IMG/VR virus record: IMGVR_UViG_3300024430_000002
Location: 1-48,183 of that record
Length of the DNA stretch: 48,183 nt
Origin: a virus
Strand: one strand, 5' to 3'
Shown here: in pieces, positions 5,023 to 41,813 of the stretch
How the letters are laid out: each line of letters opens with the position of its first letter
How positions within the stretch are numbered: the stretch's first letter is position 1
Program-made: the position numbers and the translations under genes
Notes under the pieces: generated by a model
What the model was told of the DNA's origin: nothing
What the model saw: only the letters and a program-made list of their open reading frames with translations
The model's database searches: none

Positions 5023-5397
5023 ATGAAGGTTCTTGTCTGCGGCTCCCGAGAGTGGATCGACTACCCCGCCGTACGCGACCGCCTCGCGCGGCTCCCCGGA
5101 GACACGGAGATCATCCACGGGGGCGCATCCGGAGCCGACTTCTGGGCGAAACTCTCCGCGCGGCACCTGGGCCTTCCCGAGCAGGCGTTCCCCGCCGACT
5201 GGCGAACGCACGGCAAGCGCGCGGGCATCCTCCGGAACCTTCAGATGCTCGACGAGTGCCCCGACCTCGTGATCGCGTTCCAGGTCAACGGGTCGCGCGG
5301 CACACAGCACACCATCGACGAAGCCCGCCGCCGCGGCATCCCCGTCGAAGTGCACACGCCCTCGGGCTACGGCCTGAACGACCGGACCGTGGCCTGA
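5023..5397 (+). CDS. SLOG-fold nucleotide-binding protein (DUF2493-like)
   Basis: 124 aa. The pattern is typical of the YspA/DUF2493 branch of the SLOG superfamily: MKVLVCGSREW at the N-terminus, HGGASGAD at 32-39, then ADW..HGKRAGILRN..M, and T..A...GIPVEV near the end. SLOG proteins bind nucleotides or nucleotide-derived ligands. In phages the role is unknown. The ATG at 5023 is preferred over 5014 because the family starts with MKVLVCGSR. The gene is rightward inside the leftward tail operon and overlaps the fibre gene tail-to-tail by 31 bases. Probably a moron. Confidence 0.85.
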   Translation: MKVLVCGSREWIDYPAVRDRLARLPGDTEIIHGGASGADFWAKLSARHLGLPEQAFPADWRTHGKRAGILRNLQMLDECPDLVIAFQVNGSRGTQHTIDEARRRGIPVEVHTPSGYGLNDRTVA

Positions 5398-8300
5398 TAC
5401 GACCCCGGGTCAATCTCGACAGCCGCCTGCAACTTCCCCGACGGCAGCAGCGTCCCGCTGCCCGCCCACGACGGCGACGACGGGAACGACCCCGCCCCCG
5501 TCACGCGAATGTAGATCCGGTACTCCGTGATGCCCTGGTTCGCCGGAGCGGGGTTCCACTGCATCGTGATCAGCCCCTCTCCCGCCGTGCCGATCACCCC
5601 CGTCAGCGCGGTCTGCGTCGCGACGGGTCTTGCTTCCACGTACTCCGGGGAAGCCGCCGCGGGATCGGACAGCTGGGAGTTGGTGTTCTTCGCGCGGACA
5701 CGCAGGTACGTCGTCGACCCGACCGTCAGCCCGGTCACCGTCTTCGACGTCGTGTTGCTCGTCGAGTTCTGCGACCACGTCGTGGTGTCCGTGCTCGTCT
5801 CGATGACGTACGGCTCCGTCGCGTGCAGCGACGGCCCGGTGCTCGCGGTCCACGTGAGGTCCGCCGCCCCGGCCGCCGTGACGTTGGTCACGGCGAGGTT
5901 CTGCGGCGCGGCGGGGATGCCGCCGGTGCCGGGGTCGGTGAACACGTAGACGCTCGACGCCGGCGCGTCGCTCGTGGTGACCGTCGTGCCGGTGATCGCG
6001 GTCTGATCCGCGCCGTTGCCGGTCAGGTCCGTCACGCTCGTCCCCACCGCGGACTGGTTGAACTCCCAGCCCCCCGACGGGCCGAGCGCGAGATACGTGC
6101 TCTTCGAGCCGCCGTCGAGCGCCTCGAACTGCGAGTCAGACAGAGCGGTGCCGTTGAAGATGTACGCGAACCCGATCTTGCCGTTGAAGAAGTTCGCGGC
6201 GAGGCTTGAGCCGAACACGACGCGGCCACCCGCGAAGCTCGCCTGGTTGGCGACGGCGGTCGCCATGTCCGCGTGCGTCCACGCCCCCGCCTTGTAGACG
6301 TGCCCTCTCGGCGCGACTGACCCGGAGGCTTTGGAGAACGCGACGATCACCCAGCCGTCGGCCTGCTGCACGTTCGTCCCGGCCGCGGACGCCAGCGCAT
6401 TCGAGTTGGTGCCCCAGATGACGCCGGGCCGGCCGGGGTTCGTGTCCGCGATGAAGATCCCGACCTGCACCGCGGTCCCCGCGGAGTTCTCGATGACCAT
6501 GAGCGGGCCCCAGATGCTGTCGGCGTCCTTGCGGCAGCCGACGATCATCGTCCACGCCCCGGTGAGGTTGTTGTTGCCGAGGCTCGCGATGATCCGGTCG
6601 TCGGTCCCGTCGAAATCCCGGGTGGGAGTCGTCGCCCCCGCGCTGTTGACGACCAGCGTCGAGGTGCGCGTGATGTTCGAGAGGTTCGCGTCCGCCGGGT
6701 CGACGGTGACCGTCGCGTTGTACGTCCCCGCGGTCAGGCCGCTGGTGTTGTAAGCCTGCGTGACGGTCGTGCCCGTCGTGGACGCGGTGCCCGAGGAGCC
6801 GCCGCCGCCGGCGGTGCGCAGGAACGGGACGCCGCCGCCACTGTGGACGCTGGTGCCGGTGATCGAGGTTTGCGTCGACCCGCCGACCGCGTCGGTGACG
6901 GCGGTCGCGGTGCTCGCCTGGTCGAGCGGGAACACCTTGGCGCCGTTGCCGCTGGTGAACCCGGCGGCCGCGAGCGTGGCGAGCGTCACCAGCCCGCTCG
7001 AGACCATCAGCTCCCGGTTGGCTTGGGAGACGACGATCGGCACGACGCCGCACACCGCGATCTCCCCGGGCCAAAGCGTCGTGCCGGTACCCGTCGTCGC
7101 GTTGCCGATAGTGAGGTCCGTCGGCGTGAACGCCGTCCGGTTGACCGACCCCGTGCCGTGATTCCACGTCCCGGCCGTGAAGTCGTACATCGAGCCGATG
7201 ATCGCGCCGGGCGACCCACTCGCTTTCGACGCGACGAGCAGCACCCACGTCGACGGTGTCTGCTTGACGGCGCTGTCGAGGCCCTGCCCGCCCGCAGTGT
7301 TGTCCCAGTACGCGACCGCCCAGTCCGCGTTGTCGCCGGAGCGCAGGAAGTACTGCGGTGTCGCGCCGGCGGACAAGCCGATCGGGGAGGCGTCCACGTT
7401 CTGGTTCTTGCGGACGAGCGCGAAGAACGTGCCGCCGTTCGACGTCAGGCCGTCGAGCGTCATCACGATCCGGTCGTCGACGCGATCGAACGTCCGCGCG
7501 TACGTCCCGGTCCCGCCGCCCCCGGCGACGGTGACGGTGAGCCACGACGCGTCATCGGAGACGGTGAAGTCGGCGTTCCCCGCCGCTGACCCGGTGTTCG
7601 TGACGGTGAACGTCGTGTTCGCGGGGTTCGCGCCGCCCGCCGTCGCGGTCTGCGACGGCAGCGTGGAGACGGTGAGGATCGCCGCGACGCCCGGGGTCGC
7701 CGACGCGAACTCCGCCGGGCCTCCCCACGACGCGTAGTTCCCGGCCTGCCCGACGCTCTGACGGAAGAAGTACTGGCGGCCGTTCGTGAGCCCCGTCACC
7801 TGGTAGGTCGTGGTGTTCAACGGGATCGCGAGGTCCACCGGCGTGTTCGGGGTGAACGCCTCCCCCGTCGTCAGCGTGGAGTCCGCGTAGTACAGCTGGC
7901 GGGTGTCGCCGGCGAGCGCGCCGGTGACGTCACCGAGGTTCAGGTTCACGACGCCGTCGCCGACGCTCACCACCACCGGCGTGTCCGCATCCCGCGTAGT
8001 ACCCCCACCACCGCCGCCGCCGCCGGTGGTGGTGCCCATGACTTCCGCGCGGGTGGTGGCGACGATCATGTTCGCGAAGTAGTTGCTTCGCGCGAAGTTC
8101 ACCGTCGCGGCGTAGATCCCGAACTTCAGGTACGCGTCGCTCCGGTTGGCGTAGATGAGGCCGCCCGCGCCGGTGTTCGCGCCGCTGTCACCGGGCGCCC
8201 GCCAGTCCGTGTCATTGACGACCTGGACGCCGTCGACCCACACTTCGACGCGGGCGCTGCCGGTGCGCCCCGCGACGCACCCGAACACGATCCGCCGCCA

Positions 8301-8759
8301 CGACGTGCTCGTGGAAGCGAGCAGGTAGTTCTCCGTGCCGCGGGAGTCGATCCGCAGGCCGCCGCCGCGCTCGTTGGAGTTCCACGTCATCGCGAGCGGC
8401 GGGCCGCCCGTCCCGCCGTTCTTGAACTGGTGGCTCGCGCCCCACGGCTGCCCGCCGTAACCCGACGTCCGGAAGTCGAACCCGTACCAGATCGTCTGCC
8501 CGACGGTGATGTTCGGGACGTTCGGCTCGAACTCGCACCGCGCGCTGCCCTCATCCGACACGTACCCCGCGGGGACGTGGCAGTGCAGCGCCTTCCCGAT
8601 CGTCGCGTCGGTGATGACCTCGATGTACGGGCCGCCCGCGCGAATGTTGTGCGGGGTGCTCTTGAGGCCGGGGAGCGCGGGCCGCGTGCTGTTGTTGAGG
8701 TCGGGCGCGCGAGTGCCGTTCGCGACGTTCGCCCAGTTCGGTGCTACGAGTACGGTCAA
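5367..8759 (-). CDS. large multidomain tail fibre protein
   Basis: 1130 aa, the longest tail protein here. Domains by pattern: 1-240, a polysaccharide-lyase/heparinase-like jelly roll (GYVSDEGSARCEFEP, TIWYGFDFRTS). Then a Gly-rich linker (243-254) and a fibronectin-III-like domain (~260-355). ~360-415 and ~650-705 are the two halves of a BACON-like domain, separated by a LamG-like domain (~420-640). A second LamG-like domain lies at ~713-930, followed by two fibronectin-III-like domains to the end. It probably binds, and may trim, host surface glycans. The start is TTG, supported by GGGAG 6 bases upstream. Confidence 0.8.
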   Translation of the reverse strand: MTVLVAPNWANVANGTRAPDLNNSTRPALPGLKSTPHNIRAGGPYIEVITDATIGKALHCHVPAGYVSDEGSARCEFEPNVPNITVGQTIWYGFDFRTSGYGGQPWGASHQFKNGGTGGPPLAMTWNSNERGGGLRIDSRGTENYLLASTSTSWRRIVFGCVAGRTGSARVEVWVDGVQVVNDTDWRAPGDSGANTGAGGLIYANRSDAYLKFGIYAATVNFARSNYFANMIVATTRAEVMGTTTGGGGGGGGTTRDADTPVVVSVGDGVVNLNLGDVTGALAGDTRQLYYADSTLTTGEAFTPNTPVDLAIPLNTTTYQVTGLTNGRQYFFRQSVGQAGNYASWGGPAEFASATPGVAAILTVSTLPSQTATAGGANPANTTFTVTNTGSAAGNADFTVSDDASWLTVTVAGGGGTGTYARTFDRVDDRIVMTLDGLTSNGGTFFALVRKNQNVDASPIGLSAGATPQYFLRSGDNADWAVAYWDNTAGGQGLDSAVKQTPSTWVLLVASKASGSPGAIIGSMYDFTAGTWNHGTGSVNRTAFTPTDLTIGNATTGTGTTLWPGEIAVCGVVPIVVSQANRELMVSSGLVTLATLAAAGFTSGNGAKVFPLDQASTATAVTDAVGGSTQTSITGTSVHSGGGVPFLRTAGGGGSSGTASTTGTTVTQAYNTSGLTAGTYNATVTVDPADANLSNITRTSTLVVNSAGATTPTRDFDGTDDRIIASLGNNNLTGAWTMIVGCRKDADSIWGPLMVIENSAGTAVQVGIFIADTNPGRPGVIWGTNSNALASAAGTNVQQADGWVIVAFSKASGSVAPRGHVYKAGAWTHADMATAVANQASFAGGRVVFGSSLAANFFNGKIGFAYIFNGTALSDSQFEALDGGSKSTYLALGPSGGWEFNQSAVGTSVTDLTGNGADQTAITGTTVTTSDAPASSVYVFTDPGTGGIPAAPQNLAVTNVTAAGAADLTWTASTGPSLHATEPYVIETSTDTTTWSQNSTSNTTSKTVTGLTVGSTTYLRVRAKNTNSQLSDPAAASPEYVEARPVATQTALTGVIGTAGEGLITMQWNPAPANQGITEYRIYIRVTGAGSFPSSPSWAGSGTLLPSGKLQAAVEIDPGSYQATVRSFRP

Positions 8760-16143: not shown

Positions 16144-16650
16144 CTACGGGGCGGTGTCGAACGCCGACGAGATCGTGAAGCTGTCGTTGCTCGCGCCGGC
16201 ACCTGCGGTCACGGTGCGGCGCAACCACAGGCCCTTGAACTGGCCGGCGGGGATCGTGCCGATGCTCAGGCCGGCGCCTTCCGTCGCGGGCTCGGTGAAC
16301 GACGGGCCGGACGGCGCGGTGTTCTCGTTCGCGATCGTCTCCATCTGCGTGTTGACTGCTTCGTCGGCGAGCGCGATGGCGATCTGCGTGCCGGTGTCGG
16401 CGGTGTTCGCGCTCAGCCACACGACGGTGTTCTCGGCGGAGACGTTCCCGGCGTTGTAGAGGTAGACGCCGCGGTACTCGGTGTCGCCGGCCTGCTCCTC
16501 GGCGCCGGACACGTCGTCGAACAGGCTGTTCGCGGTCGCGGCCTCGGGGACGATCCCGCCGGCCTGCGTGCTGCGCGCGCCGCCGAGCGCGGCGTTCGGG
16601 TTCGTGTTCGTCGTCCCGCCGGACAGGTGAAGTTCAAGGTCTGCGGCCAT
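16144..16650 (-). CDS. virion-associated protein, possibly head decoration
   Basis: 168 aa. Starts MAADLELHLSGGTTNTNPNA. Has DTEYRGVYLYN and AENTVVWLSANT. This reads like small beta-sandwich virion proteins encoded between capsid and connector genes in several siphoviruses. GGAGA lies ~10 bases before the ATG. Role (head decoration or fibre base) is inferred from position only. Confidence 0.55.
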   Translation of the reverse strand: MAADLELHLSGGTTNTNPNAALGGARSTQAGGIVPEAATANSLFDDVSGAEEQAGDTEYRGVYLYNAGNVSAENTVVWLSANTADTGTQIAIALADEAVNTQMETIANENTAPSGPSFTEPATEGAGLSIGTIPAGQFKGLWLRRTVTAGAGASNDSFTISSAFDTAP

Positions 16651-16673: not shown

Positions 16674-18683
16674 CTACTCCGGCGCTCCGACCGCGGTCAG
16701 TGCTTCCGGCGCGGTCACGGTGAGGCTGCTGTCGTCGGTGCGGGACGCGCCGGTCGCGTCCGCGGTGATCGCCGTCAGGCCGGCTTCGAGGTGCCCGACC
16801 GTGGAGATGAACGCCAGGACCGCGTAGGTGGACTCCCACGCCGTGGCGGGACGCGCGAGCACCACGTACGCGGACGTCCACGCTGCCGCGCCGCGATGAT
16901 GCGTGACGTACAGGGACGCCCATGACACCGGGGTGCGGACGCGGACGGTGTACGCGCTCGCCCACGCGGTGGTCGCGCGGCCGGCGACGCCGTAGCTGCT
17001 CGCCCACGCCGCGGTGACGTGTCCCGCGACGCCGTAGCTGGTCGCCCATCCCGCGGTGAGCCGGGCGTCCGCGGTGTACGTCGACGCCCACGCGACGGTG
17101 GCGCGCGTGCGCGTCGTGTACGTGGATTCCCACGCCGCGGTGACGTGCGCGTGGACGACGTACGTGCTCGCCCATGACGTGGCGCCCGCGCCGAGCACTT
17201 CGACGTCGTAGGAGGACTGCCACGTCGCCGTGACGCGCGCCCGCGCCACATACGTGCTCGTCCACGCGGCGCTTTCGCGGCTGGCGGTGACGTACGTCGA
17301 CGCCCACGACGCCGCGAGCCGGGCGTGCGTGACGTACGTCGACGCCCACGCGGTGGTCGCCCGGGCGCGCGTGACGTAGGTCGACGCCCACGAGGCTTCG
17401 GCGCGGCCCTCGACCCCGTAGGAGGACTGCCATGCCGCGGTGAGCCGGGCGCCCGTGCGGTACGTGCTCGCCCACGCGGCCGCGAGTCGCGCTCGAGCGA
17501 CGTACGTGCTCGCCCACGCGCTGGCCGCGCGCGCCTTCGTGACGTAGGAGGACTGCCAGGACGCTTGCGCGCGTCCCTTGACGGTGTAGGTCGACGCCCA
17601 CGACGTGGCGTGGTGCGCGCGCGCGAGGTAGCTGCTCGACCACGACGCCTGGGTGCGCGTCTTGGTCGTGTACGACGACGCCCATGCCGCGCCCGCGCCA
17701 GCCCGCACGATGTAACTGCTCTGCCACGACGTGGCGAGGCGAGCCTTGGTCCGGTAGGAGGACTGCCACGCGACCGTCTGATGGCTCTTGGCCGTGTAGG
17801 AGGACTGCCACGACGCGACGGCGCGCGTTTTCGTGACGTACGTGCTCGACCACGCCGCCGCCGCGTAGTCTTTGGCGACGTACGACGACTGCCACGACCG
17901 GGACTGATGGTCGTTCGTGACGTAGGAGGACTGCCAGGACGTGGTGACGCGAGTCGCGCCTCCGCCGCCGACGCCGAGCAGCGAGACCTGGAACGCCGCC
18001 CAGTCCTGCGAGCTCGTGGAGGTCGCGCCCTCGGTGATCGCCGCCGCGGCCGCCTGCACCTGATCGGCGACCGTGACGACCATCGTGCCGCCGAGGTAGT
18101 CCTGCTCTCGGACGTTCAACGCCCCGTCGTCCGGCGTGATCGTGTCCGTCGAAGACCGGTCGATCAGCCACGCCGTCACGACCGTCGCGCCATCCTCCGA
18201 CGGCGTGATCGACGGGCCCGTGAACGACGTGCCCGCCGCGCCCGACACCGCTACCGTCGCATCGTCGAACGCGGCATCCTGGTAGGCGAGCACCACGGCG
18301 CCCTGATCCACCGCGCTCGCGAACGACCACGAGGCGAGCGTGCTCGACGCGGCGTCCGTGCTGTCCGCGGTCTTCCCGAACAGCCACGCCGTGAAGTCGA
18401 CGGCGTCCGCCTCGGCGAGCTCCGTCCACCCGCTCGGCGGCGTGCTCAGCGCGATGCTCGAGCTGTTGCTGAGGATGATCAGCAGCAGCTCGTCGCCGGC
18501 CTCGAGACCGGCGGGCTTCGGGACGTCGCTCGCGGCGGCCGCCTCGACCCCTGAGCTCGCCTTGGACCGGAACGTCGCGGTTCCGCCGCCGCCGCCTTCC
18601 TCCGGCTGGGCGGGCGGCTTGACGAGCCGCGAGCCGAGTAGTGGTTCGCTAGGTGCCCCCGGGACGGGGTAGCGCAGCGCCAT
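16674..18683 (-). CDS. 27-fold 14-residue W-x-S-x-Y repeat virion protein
   Basis: 669 aa. Residues ~1-35 are a Pro/Gly-rich leader. ~36-240 is a beta-sandwich-like domain (ELLLIILSNSSS, TVVTAWLIDR, DWAAFQVSLL) seen in simpler form in the gene at 19186. Residues 249-625 are 27 tandem copies of a 14-residue unit, consensus (S/A)W(Q/A)S(S/T)Y(V/T)(T/A)(K/R)(A/T)R(A/L)(A/T)(A/S). Copy 18 has two extra residues. The last ~44 residues are non-repetitive. Located among accessory virion genes, it is probably a head or tail fibre. GGGAGG lies 6 bases before the ATG. I do not know this repeat family. Confidence 0.8.
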   Translation of the reverse strand: MALRYPVPGAPSEPLLGSRLVKPPAQPEEGGGGGTATFRSKASSGVEAAAASDVPKPAGLEAGDELLLIILSNSSSIALSTPPSGWTELAEADAVDFTAWLFGKTADSTDAASSTLASWSFASAVDQGAVVLAYQDAAFDDATVAVSGAAGTSFTGPSITPSEDGATVVTAWLIDRSSTDTITPDDGALNVREQDYLGGTMVVTVADQVQAAAAAITEGATSTSSQDWAAFQVSLLGVGGGGATRVTTSWQSSYVTNDHQSRSWQSSYVAKDYAAAAWSSTYVTKTRAVASWQSSYTAKSHQTVAWQSSYRTKARLATSWQSSYIVRAGAGAAWASSYTTKTRTQASWSSSYLARAHHATSWASTYTVKGRAQASWQSSYVTKARAASAWASTYVARARLAAAWASTYRTGARLTAAWQSSYGVEGRAEASWASTYVTRARATTAWASTYVTHARLAASWASTYVTASRESAAWTSTYVARARVTATWQSSYDVEVLGAGATSWASTYVVHAHVTAAWESTYTTRTRATVAWASTYTADARLTAGWATSYGVAGHVTAAWASSYGVAGRATTAWASAYTVRVRTPVSWASLYVTHHRGAAAWTSAYVVLARPATAWESTYAVLAFISTVGHLEAGLTAITADATGASRTDDSSLTVTAPEALTAVGAPE
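16809..17939 (-). repeat. 42-bp tandem repeat array (27 units)
   Basis: DNA basis of the W-x-S-x-Y repeats: period 42 bp over ~1.13 kb, with one 48-bp unit. Units are clearly diverged at DNA level, while W at position 2, S at 4 and Y at 6 are kept in all copies except the third (S to T) in one unit. This suggests an old array held by selection on the protein rather than a recent expansion. Confidence 0.9.
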
Positions 18684-18742
18684 TCGCTACCTCCCTCACC
18701 GCCCACGGACGGCGCACACGACCGCGCCGCGCCGCGGATCAC

Positions 18743-19186
18743 TCACTCGTCCCAAATGAGCGAGTAGCGGCAGATTTGTCCCGTGCCGCTCGGGACGTAC
18801 AACCCGAGACCGTTGCTCGTGCCGACCGGGCACGTAACGCCGACGTCGTTGTGGAACGTCCAGATGACGCCGTCTCCGATCGCCGCGCCCATCACTTTGG
18901 ATGGTCCGACGTTCACGATCGTCGGCGCGACGGTGTGGCCCGCGAACCCGGTCACTGACGCGGCGGTGCCCGTCGCGTCGTAGTTGGCTTCGGTGAGCGC
19001 CGCGCCCTGCGTGCCCGTTGTCGTCAGCCGGCAGAGGGAGACGACGAACCCGCCGGTCGCGGTCGTGTTGAACACGTGCACTTCGCGAAGCCGCGGGTTG
19101 ACGGTCGCGCTGCTGTAGATCGAGACGAACGGCAGTGTCGCCGACCCGGCGATCGTGGCGGTCCCGTCGATCGAGTATCGACCCAT
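18743..19186 (-). CDS. hypothetical virion protein
   Basis: 147 aa, mostly beta. Starts MGRYSIDGTATIAG. Has LREVHVFNTTATGGFVVSL and ends CRYSLIWDE. The pattern is like small structural proteins with a jelly-roll-type fold, but no family is recognised. The ATG overlaps the upstream stop (TGATG), so it is translated together with the 248-aa protein. Probably an accessory capsid or fibre component. Confidence 0.6.
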   Translation of the reverse strand: MGRYSIDGTATIAGSATLPFVSIYSSATVNPRLREVHVFNTTATGGFVVSLCRLTTTGTQGAALTEANYDATGTAASVTGFAGHTVAPTIVNVGPSKVMGAAIGDGVIWTFHNDVGVTCPVGTSNGLGLYVPSGTGQICRYSLIWDE

Positions 19187-19932
19187 CAGCGTGCTCCCAT
19201 GTACGGGGCCAGAGTCAAGTTCGGGATTGCTGCCGCTCCGCCGCCGGCGTCAGGGATCAGCGTCCACATGCGGCCTGCCCGGGTCACCGTCGCCGACGTC
19301 AAGTTGCTGAACGTGCACGAGCCGTTGCTCGTGTTGTTGTAGGCGTAGCACGTCAGCTGGTCGCCGCCGTTGGTGTTGTCGTAGTCGGTCGCGCATTTCA
19401 CGAACCCGGATGCGACCGTCGACTCGCCGGTGGAGTCGTCGCTGCGCGTGCCGACCGCGAGATGCAACTCGCCCGCGTTGAGCGCCGCGGGCGCCAGGAT
19501 CGTGCCGATGATCGTGCTCGACGTGGACGACGTGCCGTAGTTCGCGCCGGACGTGCCGAACGGCGTGGTTGTGTCGACGTCCGTGAACGCGAGCGCCCTG
19601 ACCGACCCGGAATGACCACTCGTCCCGGTCGTGCCGCCCGTGAACGTGACCGACGGCATCGCCATCGACGGGGAGTCCGCGAACTTGTAGAACAGCTTGA
19701 TGTACTGCCGTGGGCTGGACGTCGTCGACGCGACGTCCGGGTGCGCGGACCAGCCCGCGGTGGATGTCGTGATGCCCGAGTCCGTCGCGGTCGTGTTCGC
19801 CGTGTCCCACGACGCGACCACGATGACGAGGTCGCCCGTCTCCATGCCGGCCGGCGCCGACGGGGTAACGGACGCGGGGCTTGTCGTGCCGGCGGCCTGC
19901 GGGGTACCTACGCTGCGGAACCCGACCGCCAT
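19186..19932 (-). CDS. virion protein with domain shared with repeat protein
   Basis: 248 aa. MAVGFRSVGTPQAAG opens a beta domain with MEtGDLVIVVASWDTANTT and AGWSAHPD. The same layout (E-A/T-G-D-hydrophobic strand, later PPSGWTEL) appears at residues ~60-90 of the W-x-S-x-Y repeat protein, so the two share a domain. Probably the stand-alone form of a surface-exposed virion domain. The ribosome site is AGGAG ~11 bases upstream. Confidence 0.6.
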   Translation of the reverse strand: MAVGFRSVGTPQAAGTTSPASVTPSAPAGMETGDLVIVVASWDTANTTATDSGITTSTAGWSAHPDVASTTSSPRQYIKLFYKFADSPSMAMPSVTFTGGTTGTSGHSGSVRALAFTDVDTTTPFGTSGANYGTSSTSSTIIGTILAPAALNAGELHLAVGTRSDDSTGESTVASGFVKCATDYDNTNGGDQLTCYAYNNTSNGSCTFSNLTSATVTRAGRMWTLIPDAGGGAAAIPNLTLAPYMGAR

Positions 19933-21484: not shown

Positions 21485-21856
21485 TCAGGACTCGTCGGCG
21501 TAGCCCCAGCGGCGCGCAGCGCGCTCCCGCGCGTAGCGCTCGCCGCGCTCCGTGTCGTTCGACACGCCCGCGACCTTCTTCAGCGCGCCGCCGGACGGCG
21601 TGTCGAGCGCGTTCGGGGACTCCTCGGCGGCCTTGGCCTTCGCCTGGGCCTCCTTCTGCTGGTCCTCCGCCGTCATCGCGTCCTTCATCGCCTTCTGCAC
21701 CGGGTCCTTGTCCGGCAGGTCCTCCGCGAGCCGGCGCAGCTCACGCGGCGTCGACGGGCCGAGGGACGCGGTCTTGTCGTCGGTCTTGACGTCCGGCTGG
21801 ACGTTCTGGAGGGACACGCCGGTCGTCTCGGCCGGGTCCTTCGCCTTCTCAGCCAT
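21485..21856 (-). CDS. hypothetical charged head protein
   Basis: 123 aa, very charged and Ala/Glu/Lys-rich with a helical middle (RRLAEDLPDKDPVQKAMKDA, QQKEAQAKAKAAEE). Ends in an Arg-rich tail. Composition resembles small scaffolding or capsid-associated proteins, but the capsid protein here has its own scaffold-like N-terminus. ATG at 21856 with AAGGAG upstream. The homing endonuclease gene overlaps its first 8 bases. Confidence 0.6.
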   Translation of the reverse strand: MAEKAKDPAETTGVSLQNVQPDVKTDDKTASLGPSTPRELRRLAEDLPDKDPVQKAMKDAMTAEDQQKEAQAKAKAAEESPNALDTPSGGALKKVAGVSNDTERGERYARERAARRWGYADES

Positions 21857-22652
21857 GATCGGCTCCTTGTCGTTCAGCGAGAGCGGCTCGTACCGCTTCC
21901 GGGTAGTTCTCCACGACAAACGCGACGAGGTCCACAACGCGCTGCCCTGGAAGTTGTGGCTTGACCCACAGTTCGAGATTCTCCGGGCGGTTGTCATCCC
22001 GGATGCCGTTCTTGTGATGCGGCGTCTCGCCCGGCAATAGTGGACGACCGAGCATCTGCTCCATGACGATGCGGTGAACGGCCTCGCCGCGGTCGTAGAG
22101 ATAGCCCGCCTTGGACTTGACGATGCCCGGCTTACGCAACAAGCCGGGAGGCCCGACCTCGCCAGTTGAGAGAAGCCGCTGGTAATGCATGTTGCATAGA
22201 CCACGAGCGAAGTACTTGCGCGAACAGCCGTCAACCGAACAGAGGTCAACATCACGACGGGCTTTCCCGGGCTCACGCCGCATGGGCGGCGCGTCCATAT
22301 TCAAGCCCTTGCGACGCCGATGGCGATGTAGCGCGCAGAGTCCTTGCGATTGTCGTTCGCGGGTACAGCCTGGGTGAGAACACTCGTGTCCTTGCGCTGG
22401 CTGCCTGCGCACATCCATGTCTTGACCAGCGAGCCGACGGCGGTGATGCGTTTGGCACATGCCATCGGCGAGACCCGGCATCGCCGTCCGGTCGCAGCCG
22501 GGATAACTGCATGTCTGACGCACGCGCCGCGACCATGCAGCGATCCGACACTCCGGCGTGCAGAAGCGCTGGTCGTTTCGGTGCCGTGGCGTGAACTCCC
22601 GTCCGCAGCCCTCGCACGGACGAGGACTGCGGACCTGCGGGGACTTGGGCAT
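21849..22652 (-). CDS. HNH homing endonuclease with zinc-finger array
   Basis: 267 aa. Four Cys/His zinc modules make up the first ~150 residues (CEGCGREF..CTPECR; CSYPGCDR...CQTHH; CSHPGCTR...CALHRHR; CSVDGCSR...CNMHYQR). An HNH_3-type nuclease domain follows (HRIVMEQMLGRPLLPGETPH, HKNGIRDDNRPENLELW). This is the layout of free-standing homing endonucleases. It sits between capsid-region genes and overlaps the next gene by 8 bases. Its base composition is less GC-rich than its neighbours, with more A/T at third positions, consistent with a mobile gene. Confidence 0.85.
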   Translation of the reverse strand: MPKSPQVRSPRPCEGCGREFTPRHRNDQRFCTPECRIAAWSRRVRQTCSYPGCDRTAMPGLADGMCQTHHRRRLAGQDMDVRRQPAQGHECSHPGCTRERQSQGLCALHRHRRRKGLNMDAPPMRREPGKARRDVDLCSVDGCSRKYFARGLCNMHYQRLLSTGEVGPPGLLRKPGIVKSKAGYLYDRGEAVHRIVMEQMLGRPLLPGETPHHKNGIRDDNRPENLELWVKPQLPGQRVVDLVAFVVENYPEAVRAALAERQGADHG

Positions 22653-22679: not shown

Positions 22680-24149
22680 TTAGGTTGTGCCCGTCAGCGC
22701 CCTGAAAGCGTTGGCGTCGAGGACCTTCGCGCCGTTGCGCCAGTAGCAGTACAAGCCCCTTTCGCCGGTGGGCCGGCGGTTCGCGCCCATGAGGTGCGGG
22801 ATGAAGTCGACGGTGAGGCCGACGCGGTCGACGATCAGGTACCGGCTGAAGTCGCCGAACACGGCGATCTTCGTCCCGTTCGCGATCGTCTCCGCCATCT
22901 CCGACGCCTCGAACACCGGGTAGCCGAGCAGCCGCGCGGCGGTGCCCTCCTGGAGTGAGTCGACCCAGATCGCCGCCGAGGACCCGACGGTGTCGAACTG
23001 CCGGAACCGGTCGAGGATCGCGACGTCCGCCAGGAACGCGGCGCGACCGCTGTTGCGGTACCGCGGCGGCAGCGCGTTCTTCAGCGCGTACAGGTTCGCG
23101 AGCGTGACCGTCAGGCCCGTCGCCGCCGCGACCGTCGTCGTCGCCCCGGTCAGGACGCCGAACGGCTCGTTGGTGCCGCTGCCGGAGACGAACTTGCCGG
23201 CCTCGAGCGTGTCCTTCGCGTCCCGGAACAGCTCCGTCATGTCCTCCTGGAGGCTGCCCCAGTCCTGCCCGATCTCGATCGAGAACGGAACGAACGCGTG
23301 CGCGCGCTCGGCACTCACGGTCGGCTGCGCGAGCGTCGGCGAGTTGTCCGTCGCCTCCGTCGCCTCAGCGACGTAGGACGCGGTGATGCCGGCGGACGTG
23401 ATGCCGCGCCACTCGTCCGTCGTGATCTGCCGAACGCGACTGATCGACCGGATCGGGTTGACGACCCCGTTGCTCGTGTTCAGGATCGTCGTGTCGAGCT
23501 CGAACGGGACCGCGTAGCCGCCGCTCGCGGCGGTCAGTGACATGGCGCGGTAGGCGAACTGGCCCGCCGCCCACGCCTGCTGCTCCTGCCGATCCATCAT
23601 CGCCGAGTCGCGCGTAGCGAGCCACTTGACGAACGCCCGCTTGTACGCCGGCGACCCGACCGACAGCAGGTACCGGGCGAACCGGCCGTCGGGGCTGTCG
23701 GTCTTGCGCAGGAGCGCCTCGATCCGGCCCTTGGACCGCGAGGCGTCATCGAACGTGTCGATCTCGGCGATCTCCGCGTCCTCGACGGCTCGGAGCGCGC
23801 GCTCTCGCAGCTCCCTGCCCTGCTGCTGCGGGTTCGACACCGACGCGCGCACGGTCGCGAGGTCGAAGATGTCCTCGCCGCGGACCGCGCTCGCCGGGGC
23901 GGTGTGGAACGACACGCCGCTCTCGCGGTTGGCGGGCTGCTCCGCGAGCTCGGCGATCCGCCGCTCGCGCTTGTCGATCTGCGCGACGGTGCGCTCGTTC
24001 TCGTCGATCCGGGCGTTGCGGTCCGCCCACTCCTTGCCGTGATCGGACTCGGGGTCGAGGTACTGGCCCTGGTACTCCGAGTCGATCTCGCGGATACGTG
24101 CCTTGTCCTCGTCGATCTCGTCGAGGATCTCTTCCTTCGTACGTGCCAT
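22680..24149 (-). CDS. major capsid protein (HK97 fold)
   Basis: 489 aa. The first ~120 residues are a charged coiled coil (MARTKEEILDEIDEDKARI), the scaffold-like delta domain normally removed by the protease. The rest is an HK97-type capsid protein: GGYAVPFELDTTILN, RAHAFVPFSIEIGQDW, EAGKFVSGSGTNEPFG, YLIVDRVGLTVDFIPHL. The gene lies just downstream of the protease. The ATG at 24149 is chosen by the helical start and a GAGGAGG site upstream. The protein builds the icosahedral shell. Confidence 0.93.
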   Translation of the reverse strand: MARTKEEILDEIDEDKARIREIDSEYQGQYLDPESDHGKEWADRNARIDENERTVAQIDKRERRIAELAEQPANRESGVSFHTAPASAVRGEDIFDLATVRASVSNPQQQGRELRERALRAVEDAEIAEIDTFDDASRSKGRIEALLRKTDSPDGRFARYLLSVGSPAYKRAFVKWLATRDSAMMDRQEQQAWAAGQFAYRAMSLTAASGGYAVPFELDTTILNTSNGVVNPIRSISRVRQITTDEWRGITSAGITASYVAEATEATDNSPTLAQPTVSAERAHAFVPFSIEIGQDWGSLQEDMTELFRDAKDTLEAGKFVSGSGTNEPFGVLTGATTTVAAATGLTVTLANLYALKNALPPRYRNSGRAAFLADVAILDRFRQFDTVGSSAAIWVDSLQEGTAARLLGYPVFEASEMAETIANGTKIAVFGDFSRYLIVDRVGLTVDFIPHLMGANRRPTGERGLYCYWRNGAKVLDANAFRALTGTT

Positions 24150-24169
24150 TGTGGTGAGCCCTCCTCGGC

Positions 24170-24961
24170 TCAGAGCGCCCACGAGGGGCGGCCGTCGTGC
24201 TCGGTGAGGCCGTAGCGGCCCATGGGGGTGGGGTCGCGGCGCTCCTGACCCGAGGTGCCCTCGCGGGCGGCGTCGGTGCGGGAGGGTGCGGTGTCCTGCG
24301 GTGCCACGCGCAGCGCGGCCTGGAAGATGTCAGCGGTGGTGATGAGGTCGCGCGCACGGGCCGGGTTGCGCTTGAGCCACTCGAACAGGAACTCGTCGGT
24401 GAGCGACCGGACGCCCGGCGTCGTGTTCGCGTACGCCGGGAACGTCACGGGACCGAACTCGTGGAGACGGATCTCCTTGATTGACCGCTCCGCGATCCCG
24501 GCGGGGTTGTGGTCGGAGACGCCGGGCTCCTCGACGAACTCCTCGCGCATGACCTCCATGCGGAACGACTGGCCGTACTGGCCGGCACGGAGGCCCTCCA
24601 TGACGATGTCGGGCAGCCCATCGAACAGGCGCGACTCGTGGTAAGCGCCCTCTTCGTCTTCGCGGAGCTCCTGCGGCTCCGCGATCGGCCGATCGCGGAG
24701 TTCCGGGTCGCGTCCGTGCTGGAAGAGGACGCGGATCTGGTCGCGGCGCTCACGGAACGTCTTGCGGAACGCGCCGGGGACGATGCGCTCCATGAAGTGC
24801 CCTTCGAACCACGAGTCGATCTCCGTCCACTCGTCAAAGCGGGCGAAGTGGCCGAACAGGATCGGCCGAGGGTCGTCGTCGCCGTCGTCTGCACGGAACC
24901 GCACGGCCGGCGGAACGGCACGGATGATGTCCCGCGGCGGGCGGGAGTTCTGCTCGCTCAC
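24170..24961 (-). CDS. HK97-type prohead protease
   Basis: 263 aa, GTG start. Serine protease of the prohead-protease family: FGHFARFDEW, GHFMERIVPGAF, VLFQHGRDPE (catalytic His of this family), GLRAGQYGQSFRME (Ser), then RLHEFGPVTFPAYANT. It cleaves the capsid N-terminal domain during maturation. It has the usual place between portal and capsid genes. The C-terminal ~60 residues are low-complexity and probably self-cleaved. Confidence 0.92.
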   Translation of the reverse strand: MSEQNSRPPRDIIRAVPPAVRFRADDGDDDPRPILFGHFARFDEWTEIDSWFEGHFMERIVPGAFRKTFRERRDQIRVLFQHGRDPELRDRPIAEPQELREDEEGAYHESRLFDGLPDIVMEGLRAGQYGQSFRMEVMREEFVEEPGVSDHNPAGIAERSIKEIRLHEFGPVTFPAYANTTPGVRSLTDEFLFEWLKRNPARARDLITTADIFQAALRVAPQDTAPSRTDAAREGTSGQERRDPTPMGRYGLTEHDGRPSWAL

Positions 24962-40842: not shown

Positions 40843-41813
40843 GCCGCCTCTCCCGACACCACCGTGAGTTGCGGCTCATCCGCCACAGTGAGCGAACGGA
40901 CGAACTGCACCCGGCAGAAGTCCCGGAATTGCTTCGGCGTGCCTCCGCCGAACTGACCGACCGCCCTCGTCAGTGACTCGGGAGGCCCGTCGACACCGCA
41001 GCCTCGTGCCCATCCGGCAGCCTCCTGCTCCCAACGCTCCCTCTCGCGTTTCCTCCCCCCGCTCGGCGGGGGGCCGGGGGGGTTTAAGGTCGGGTCGGGT
41101 CGGGTCGGGTCGGGTAGTGCAGAACGTGGGCTAGATGCATCTAGCCCAGACCTAGCCCGCGGGCTAGATGCGATTTGGCCCGCGGGTAGAAGCGGCATCC
41201 CCGCGCCGTCGGGTGTGCGGTTGTTCTTGCGCAGGTTGCACCCGCGGCACGCAACGACCACATTGGCCAGCGAGTTGTCGCCGCGCGGCTCGACATGGTC
41301 ATACGTCCCGCCCGAGGAACTGCGCCGGTCACGCCAGTTCACCGCCTTGCCGCAGTAGCGGCAACGGTCTCCGTCGCGCTCCCGGATGGCAGCGATGAGC
41401 GCGCGGTCGCGTTCCAGTTCCTTGCGCTTGCGGTCCCAGGCAAGCGCGGTCTCCCGCTGCACCGAGGAGTCGTTGTACTGGAGGTAGTCGTGGACCACCC
41501 ACGCCTCCTCGCCGGCGTACGGCGACTGGAGCGCGAGCGTGTTCCCGTCGCGGTCGGTGACGGTCAACGATTCGCCCGCCGGAATGCGGTGGAACAGCTC
41601 GCAGTCCTCGAGCACCCGTAGCACCGCGTGCCGCTCCCGCGTTGTCGGCAGCTTCTCGGCGATCCACTCAGGGTCGATGAGCCCGTCCGTGTTGTGCCGC
41701 GCGCAATGCGTCACGGCCATCGCGTGCAACCCGACGGCGCGCGGGTGGCCTCGCCACGCCCGCTTGACCTTGCGGGAGTCGTCGTAGCGGTCGTCCATCT
41801 TCGCCCAGGTCAC
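40839..41813 (-). CDS. replication initiator-like protein with HNH domain and internal ori
   Basis: 324 aa, GTG start overlapping the upstream stop by 4 bases. Residues 1-~95 (WAKMDDRYDDSRKVKRAWRG, then AVTHCARHNTDGLIDPEWIA) match the N-terminal winged-helix type of phage replication proteins. ~125-195 is an HNH nuclease domain (CRYCGKAVNW, YDHVEPRGDNSLANVVVACR, GCN). Next is a Pro-rich linker over the candidate origin, then a helical C-terminus (QEAAGWARGCGV; PKQFRDFCRV). Presumed role: origin recognition, as for lambda O. The HNH insertion is unusual. Confidence 0.7.
   Translation of the reverse strand: MTWAKMDDRYDDSRKVKRAWRGHPRAVGLHAMAVTHCARHNTDGLIDPEWIAEKLPTTRERHAVLRVLEDCELFHRIPAGESLTVTDRDGNTLALQSPYAGEEAWVVHDYLQYNDSSVQRETALAWDRKRKELERDRALIAAIRERDGDRCRYCGKAVNWRDRRSSSGGTYDHVEPRGDNSLANVVVACRGCNLRKNNRTPDGAGMPLLPAGQIASSPRARSGLDASSPRSALPDPTRPDPTLNPPGPPPSGGRKRERERWEQEAAGWARGCGVDGPPESLTRAVGQFGGGTPKQFRDFCRVQFVRSLTVADEPQLTVVSGEAA
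41055..41190. other. candidate replication origin inside replication gene
   Basis: In one 130-bp stretch: an 8-bp hairpin with loop TCG (CCCCCCGC/GCGGGGGG, 41055-41073); five CGGGT copies (41091-41115) beside a TTTAA; a perfect 22-bp palindrome centred on GATGCATC (41127-41148); a perfect 16-bp palindrome CTAGCCCGCGGGCTAG (41152-41167); and a CCCGCGGG (41179-41186). GGGCTAGATGC occurs twice directly (41128, 41161) and once inverted. This is the arrangement of iterons within an initiator gene. Confidence 0.6.

Follow-up and report, generated by a model that had tools for sequence, protein, structure and literature searches.

Beta-solenoids and phage head/neck appendages are both already known as kinds, and several described systems resemble, in one respect or another, the repeat protein considered here, P0001. 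Phage fibres are often trimers. Among phages of the Vibrio schizotequatrovirus group, represented by KVP40, about 17 aromatic 14-mers with the consensus S-Y-D-I-D-W-N-T-R-S-x-V form a C-terminal extension of gp15, and the next gene, KVP40.0353, belongs to phrog_13135, a family annotated in PHROGs as being of unknown function. Tail proteins of phrog_6079, among them that of Pseudomonas phage vB_Pae_U8, have in their N-terminal part the 14-residue Trp spacing that is also seen in the P0001 array. The head fibre of phi29 has been described as a coiled coil, and head fibres and decoration proteins have been suggested to act in host contact (PMC7602432). The alpha-helical coiled coil of the phi29-type head fibre stands in contrast to the all-beta structure predicted for the P0001 array.

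The window analysed here, i.e. the whole stretch of 48,183 nt, carries on its minus strand, in this order, genes for a terminase, a portal, an S78 protease, the major capsid protein and an HNH endonuclease, small genes, P0002, P0003, P0001, P0004 and a head-tail adaptor, beyond which lie the tail tube, tape measure and lyase/fn3 fibre genes. The relevant features are the following:

22680 to 24182, minus strand: HK97-type major capsid protein, at the upstream edge of the apparently inserted gene group
19186 to 19932, minus strand: P0002, 248 aa, no assigned function
18743 to 19186, minus strand: P0003, 147 aa, no assigned function, in the same gene run
18690 to 18694, minus strand: GGAGG Shine-Dalgarno-like sequence, 6 nt ahead of the P0001 ATG
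16674 to 18683, minus strand: P0001, repeat-protein gene, 669 aa, ATG start (open reading frame; the plus-strand translation has stops)
17949 to 18581, minus strand: P0001 N-terminal domain, residues 35-245 approximately, of the P-x-G-x-x-x-G-D ... T-P-P-x-G-W type, judged homologous to the L201 N-domain
16800 to 17939, minus strand: P0001 repeat array, residues 249-628, 27 units of 14 residues (from the motif count and the model of units 1-9)
17178 to 17225, minus strand: lone 16-residue unit of P0001, TWQSSYDVEVLGAGAT, residues 487-502
16677 to 16799, minus strand: P0001 C-terminal tail, residues 629-669, non-repeat by sequence
16144 to 16650, minus strand: P0004, 168 aa, phrog_13135 family (PHROGs E 2.6e-18), adjoining P0001
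15287 to 16138, minus strand: head-tail adaptor, phrog_442, downstream of the module (start set by inspection)

The terminase and capsid proteins are closest to those of Rhodococcus, Gordonia and mycobacterial phages (about 34-44% identity), and the host is therefore probably an actinobacterium. In the related phages Shagrat, Eyre and REQ1 at most one gene separates the capsid gene from that of the adaptor or connector, so that P0002 to P0004 look inserted into the head/neck region. The position of the P0001 gene between those of the major capsid protein and the head-tail adaptor makes a virion role likely. Elsewhere on the minus strand, the HNH endonuclease gene (21849-22652), which follows closely on that of the major capsid protein, is probably a homing endonuclease insertion, and a 1130-residue protein (5367-8759) with polysaccharide-lyase-like and fibronectin III domains is a likely tail fibre or depolymerase.

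P0001 contains exactly 27 W-x-[S/T]-x-Y motifs, spaced by 14 residues save for one spacing of 16, and its identity at a lag of 14 is 40/70. Since none of 2000 composition-preserving shuffles produced more than three such motifs, the repeat is beyond chance, and the 14-residue repeat of P0001 is real. The initial annotation, which named no strand, had arrived at the same 27 copies and the same period, although the array, which it placed at residues 249-625, extends to 628 and includes one unit of 16 residues. It had also described Trp, Ser and Tyr as fixed at positions 2, 4 and 6 of the unit, which is the case for Trp and Tyr (27/27 each) but not entirely for Ser, which is present in 26 units and replaced by Thr in one. 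The basic residues that it noted around positions 9-11 are evident: position 9 is mostly basic (Lys/Arg in 14 units, His in three), and position 11 is Arg or His in 23/27. Furthermore, pairs of units are on average 58% identical in DNA and 44% in protein, with the fixed Ser specified by TCN codons in 17 units and by AGC codons in nine, two codon families that no single synonymous change can interconvert. This combination of drifted DNA and Ser drawn from two codon families indicates, as had been suggested from the outset, that the pattern is held by selection at the protein level.

The structure prediction advised at that stage was performed with AF2, using as input units 1-9 of P0001 aligned with units 10-18, units 19-27 and two blocks from the related contig G001. 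The nine units were predicted as an all-beta structure (pLDDT 84, pTM 0.73) comprising nine strands, one per unit, of 10-12 residues each, connected by turns of 2-4 residues. In a VIA-align comparison CsgA (8enq) ranked top at Z 11.4 with an rmsd of 8.9, while SufD (5awg) was matched at Z 10.8 with an rmsd of 2.0 over 125 residues, SufD and SufB together spanning Z 10-10.8 at an rmsd of about 2 over 122-125 residues with other parallel beta-helices below them; among repeat proteins, a Z near 11 may reflect merely a common arrangement. SufB/SufD and CsgA are parallel beta-solenoids, flattened stacks of beta-strands whose fold class is like that predicted for P0001, yet they have no sequence relation to it in Pfam or PDB searches, and P0001 matched no Pfam family at E <= 1, that of the curlin repeat of curli/CsgA included. 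A Foldseek search of the model against the PDB gave no significant match (best E 0.043), and for this reason only the class, beta-solenoid, is claimed and no specific known fold; BFVD contained one good, unnamed structural match, A0A2I4PC86 (TM 0.81/0.73). Matches between the array profile and streptavidin (E of at least 0.11) were dismissed as chance. Independently of AF2, the hydrophobicity of the array has a power of 0.42 at period 2 and of 0.12 at period 3.5, and with W, S and Y left out the values are 0.45 for even and 0.05 for odd positions. The P0001 array quite probably folds as a beta-solenoid, an antiparallel sheet being the less likely arrangement; with the aromatic ladder originally envisaged, such a fold is the best reading of the all-beta model, the solenoid matches and the period-2 hydrophobicity, and the strand length and SufD-like superposition suggest two units per coil.

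Further arrays were sought with a Trp-every-14 pattern limited to GC-rich codons, which yielded many, including DLRWAVRSAVSSTL and ASAWNVRAAVTRTA, joined to domains of the beta-helix-like, Laminin-G, minor-tail and tail-terminator types. When pooled, 29 Tyr-type and 36 Trp-type arrays gave one consensus, [Y/W]0-x-[V/I]2-R3-[A/G]4-x-V6-S-A8-D-L10-A-A12-S, and the profiles of the two types match one another (p < 1e-4). The P0001 unit matched the Tyr-type profile best with its Tyr at position 0 and its Trp at position 10 (p 0.009 against permuted columns, the maximum being taken over all 14 registers), a register that also places the Lys/Arg of P0001 on the conserved R3, while the G001 unit matched the same profile with p 0.003. 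As judged from this profile alignment, it is the Tyr of P0001, and not its Trp, that is the canonical family aromatic, the Trp occupying the usual Leu position. The Trp-type arrays alone gave no significant match: an HMM built from them did not score P0001 above column-permuted controls, and a BLOSUM profile comparison with a mainly Trp-type pool gave p 0.40. Family membership therefore rests on the Tyr-type match and on gene linkage, and P0001 and G001 form a divergent subgroup, marked by an additional aromatic. The statement that no known phage fibre family has this repeat holds insofar as Pfam and NCBIfam contain no family for P0001, nor for the other module members tested; the repeat is not, however, an orphan, P0001 being a divergent member of the phrog_13135-linked arrays.

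Searching for W-x-S-x-Y alone proved misleading, since what it brings up is another repeat, found in aquatic phages and patterned in heptads. A three-unit version of the pattern occurs in at least 120 stretches of IMG/VR, and the real arrays among these matches come for the most part from aquatic-type contigs rich in AT, their units resembling SANWDSVYTSVKNT and their spacings being mostly 14, 28 or 42. Their conserved S(-3), W0, Y4 and V7 form a 3-4-3 pattern, their hydrophobicity has a power of 0.42 at period 3.5 and of 0.17 at period 2, and their repeat does not match the 14-mer family profile (p 0.35). They were rejected as relatives of P0001 on the basis of this heptad period of 3.5, as against the period of 2 in P0001; the shared W-S-Y is imposed by the search pattern, and the two kinds of array appear to be unrelated. 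The aquatic repeat is itself a large, apparently unnamed, coiled-coil-like one: L030, L084, L095, L042 and about 60 further aquatic-type viral loci encode virion-fibre-like proteins with 14-spaced units of the type S-A-N-W-D-S-V-Y-T-S-V-x-x-T, up to 53 of them, with heptad-type hydrophobicity.

The gene that follows P0001 on the same strand, P0004, belongs to phrog_13135, and members of this family are also present in G001, G013, G014, G016, KVP40, nt-1 and ValKK3, in every case near arrays and on the same strand. Relatives of P0004 were found independently in the KVP40-group Vibrio phages, and tblastn with one GC-rich array led to KVP40 and its relatives. Strong phrog_13135 matches occur in 8 of 18 array-bearing records (one record fetched via P0004 itself being left out), on the same strand and either adjoining the array or no more than about 3 kb from it, and in none of 20 comparison records, consisting of aquatic W-S-Y phages and array-free phages. 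In the reverse test, phrog_13135 relatives were fetched from IMG/VR and their neighbouring proteins scored by repeat period. A period-14 array was found at 87 of 132 distinct loci, the nearest array gene being in most cases no more than three genes from the phrog_13135 gene; the other periods from 9 to 27, which were taken as the control because single long proteins can reach the period cut-off by chance, were found at 5-20 loci, and period 28, the double, at 75. Among loci with full flanks, 58 of 72 possess a period-14 neighbour protein (4-13 of 72 for other periods), and about a fifth lack an array at the threshold used. A smaller control of 19 loci (11/19) was dropped, as most of them had been preselected by the 14-spaced Trp pattern. 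The 14-mer arrays and phrog_13135 are, with high confidence, a genomic pair. In other phages the neighbours of this module match major head, portal, terminase, head-tail adaptor, SU10 adaptor and neck/completion families.

KVP40 shares the juxtaposition of array and phrog_13135 gene seen for P0001 and P0004, but it belongs to a different phage group, its array is fused to the tail-completion protein gp15 with no separate N-domain, and the aromatic is a Trp at position 0 with no Trp at position 10. A closer arrangement is that of L201/G014 (IMG/VR 3300049259_000307), in which 15-16 Trp 14-mers come after an N-domain and a phrog_13135 gene lies only a few bases away. Sequence comparison (BLASTP 2.5e-4; phmmer 19.8 bits, shuffled maximum 4.5) identifies the N-domains of P0001 and the L201 protein as homologous, and both proteins present the domain ahead of the array; the L201 unit, S-A-W-N-V-R-A-x-V-x-x-x-x-A, differs in having no Tyr at the second aromatic site, and the gene order is reversed. 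The initial annotation had considered the domain preceding the array to be shared with the gene at 19186 (P0002), a relationship that phmmer did not establish (2.5 bits, where shuffled sequences reached up to 3.1). The AF2 model of the P0001 N-domain with six units was poor (pLDDT 39). The contig G001 (IMG/VR 3300037418_000895; L116/L144) possesses a P0001-like W-x-S-x-Y unit in 12 copies and a phrog_13135 gene whose product is 66% identical to P0004, but its array is shorter and interrupted, two genes intervene, and its N-domain has no detectable homology to that of P0001.

The only PHROGs family reported for P0001 was phrog_6079 'tail protein' (E 3e-6), which covers part of the array. The match falls at profile positions 59-178 (65-252 in the whole-record search), leaving the hub body (profile about 180-604) unmatched, and all matches to this profile lie in repeat stretches or read through past a stop. 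The phrog_6079 proteins thus differ from P0001 in their tail hub-like body, and their unit profile is not significantly similar (L158). In vB_Pae_U8 itself (L152:2483-4243), the N-terminal 110 residues of the phrog_6079 protein contain six Trp in phase at 14. Arrays of LAGWATALTGTDAT 14-mers are found at the N-terminus of the tail terminator (phrog_4204) in L163:2-802 and L208:5387-6478, the latter also matching a grass antifreeze beta-roll model (5e-7).

Taken together, we lean slightly towards P0001 being a head/neck structural protein, a beta-solenoid rod paired with P0004 and a member of the aromatic 14-mer family. We infer its coil geometry, its physical partnership with P0004, its location and its function as follows. 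The 27 units would form a flattened parallel beta-solenoid in which each unit contributes one strand and each coil takes up two units (28 residues), giving a rod of about 13 coils and roughly 65 Å. Even positions counted from the Trp (Trp, Ser, Tyr, Val/Thr, Ala, Leu/Ala, Ala) would point inward as stacked ladders, with odd positions (Ser/Thr, Lys/Arg, Arg) facing outward. To this rigid rod the phrog_13135 protein, here P0004, would be bound as a likely cap, clamp or decoration, and the carrier domain would present the array at the head or neck. The array appears to be a movable part, which stands by itself behind a small beta domain in P0001, G001 and L201, is joined to the end of gp15 in the KVP40 group and is borne by other carriers elsewhere, and its likely job in P0001 would be that of a stiff head/neck appendage or docking rod. 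A head/neck site for the P0001 module is reasonably likely, and the arrays fused to the KVP40 tail-completion protein and to the L163 and L208 tail terminators point to the neck; that the module functions as an appendage is about an even call, and a capsid-surface position or host-contact role of the array is also conceivable.

Arrays are also carried by phrog_6079 tail hub proteins and by a gpJ-like Aeromonas protein, and the G001 array gene comes after a gene for a beta-helix-like protein, as might be expected of a tail-tip or receptor-binding adhesin in which the array is a spacer displaying the N-domain to the host surface. This is nevertheless doubtful for P0001, whose gene lies in the interval from capsid to adaptor, at a distance from the tape measure gene and from the lyase/fibre genes at 5367-8759, and whose module has many head and neck genes as neighbours elsewhere. 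Alternatively, the 14-mer could be a meander strand in a trimeric antiparallel beta-prism or beta-spiral fibre, three chains packing their aromatic faces into a shaft. A meander would likewise be compatible with units that each form a long strand and are joined by short turns, the tailspike 4oj5 is among the fold matches, and trimers are frequent among phage fibres; however, the monomer folded with good confidence and its top matches are single-chain parallel beta-helices, with an rmsd of about 2.0 over nearly the whole model, and we regard such a fibre as unlikely.

An alpha-helical coiled-coil shaft with two heptads per unit, as in the aquatic W-x-S-x-Y arrays, would account for the length of 14 residues and has a precedent in the S-A-N-W-D-S-V-Y repeats with their power at 3.5, but it is very improbable for an array that has period-2 power and an all-beta model, that places Lys/Arg at +7, where a core residue would be needed, and whose family profile the aquatic repeat misses. 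We give equally little credence to a non-structural or dispensable repeat expansion with no virion role: tandem repeats do expand readily, and unit number differs among relatives, but the fixed residues within diverged DNA, the two Ser codon families and the strong pairing with phrog_13135 all argue against it.

What appeared to be an orphan repeat in a single contig marks a conserved two-gene module beside the head/neck genes of many unrelated phages, including KVP40. Whether this amounts to a widespread, unnamed two-component virion module, in which a mobile 14-mer solenoid rod and a phrog_13135 cap or decoration would form a head/neck appendage across unrelated phages, seems to us evenly poised; if rod and partner do form such an appendage, a pair of frequent unknown genes would be explained. 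A period of 14 beside phrog_13135 provides a searchable signature, and the proposal is directly testable in cultured phages, e.g. nt-1 on Vibrio natriegens. The module is undescribed in searchable papers, a literature search for a 14-residue phage repeat having returned nothing relevant. Neither P0001 nor P0002 had a tblastn match among cultured phages, and a pattern scan of GTDB for the repeat gave only low-complexity or antisense matches and no relative. A blastn match in gp24 of Arthrobacter phage Klevey was attributed to chance, as this protein has no such repeat.

Two minor observations may be added. In Aeromonas phage PhAER-6 (L276:398-4660), about 17 units of APYNLRSSVQAELV, which correspond to the 14-mer family consensus with Tyr, are located at the C-terminus of a large, probably gpJ-like protein. 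Within the window, a perfect GGTCG tandem repeat of 5.6 copies is present at 41088-41115.
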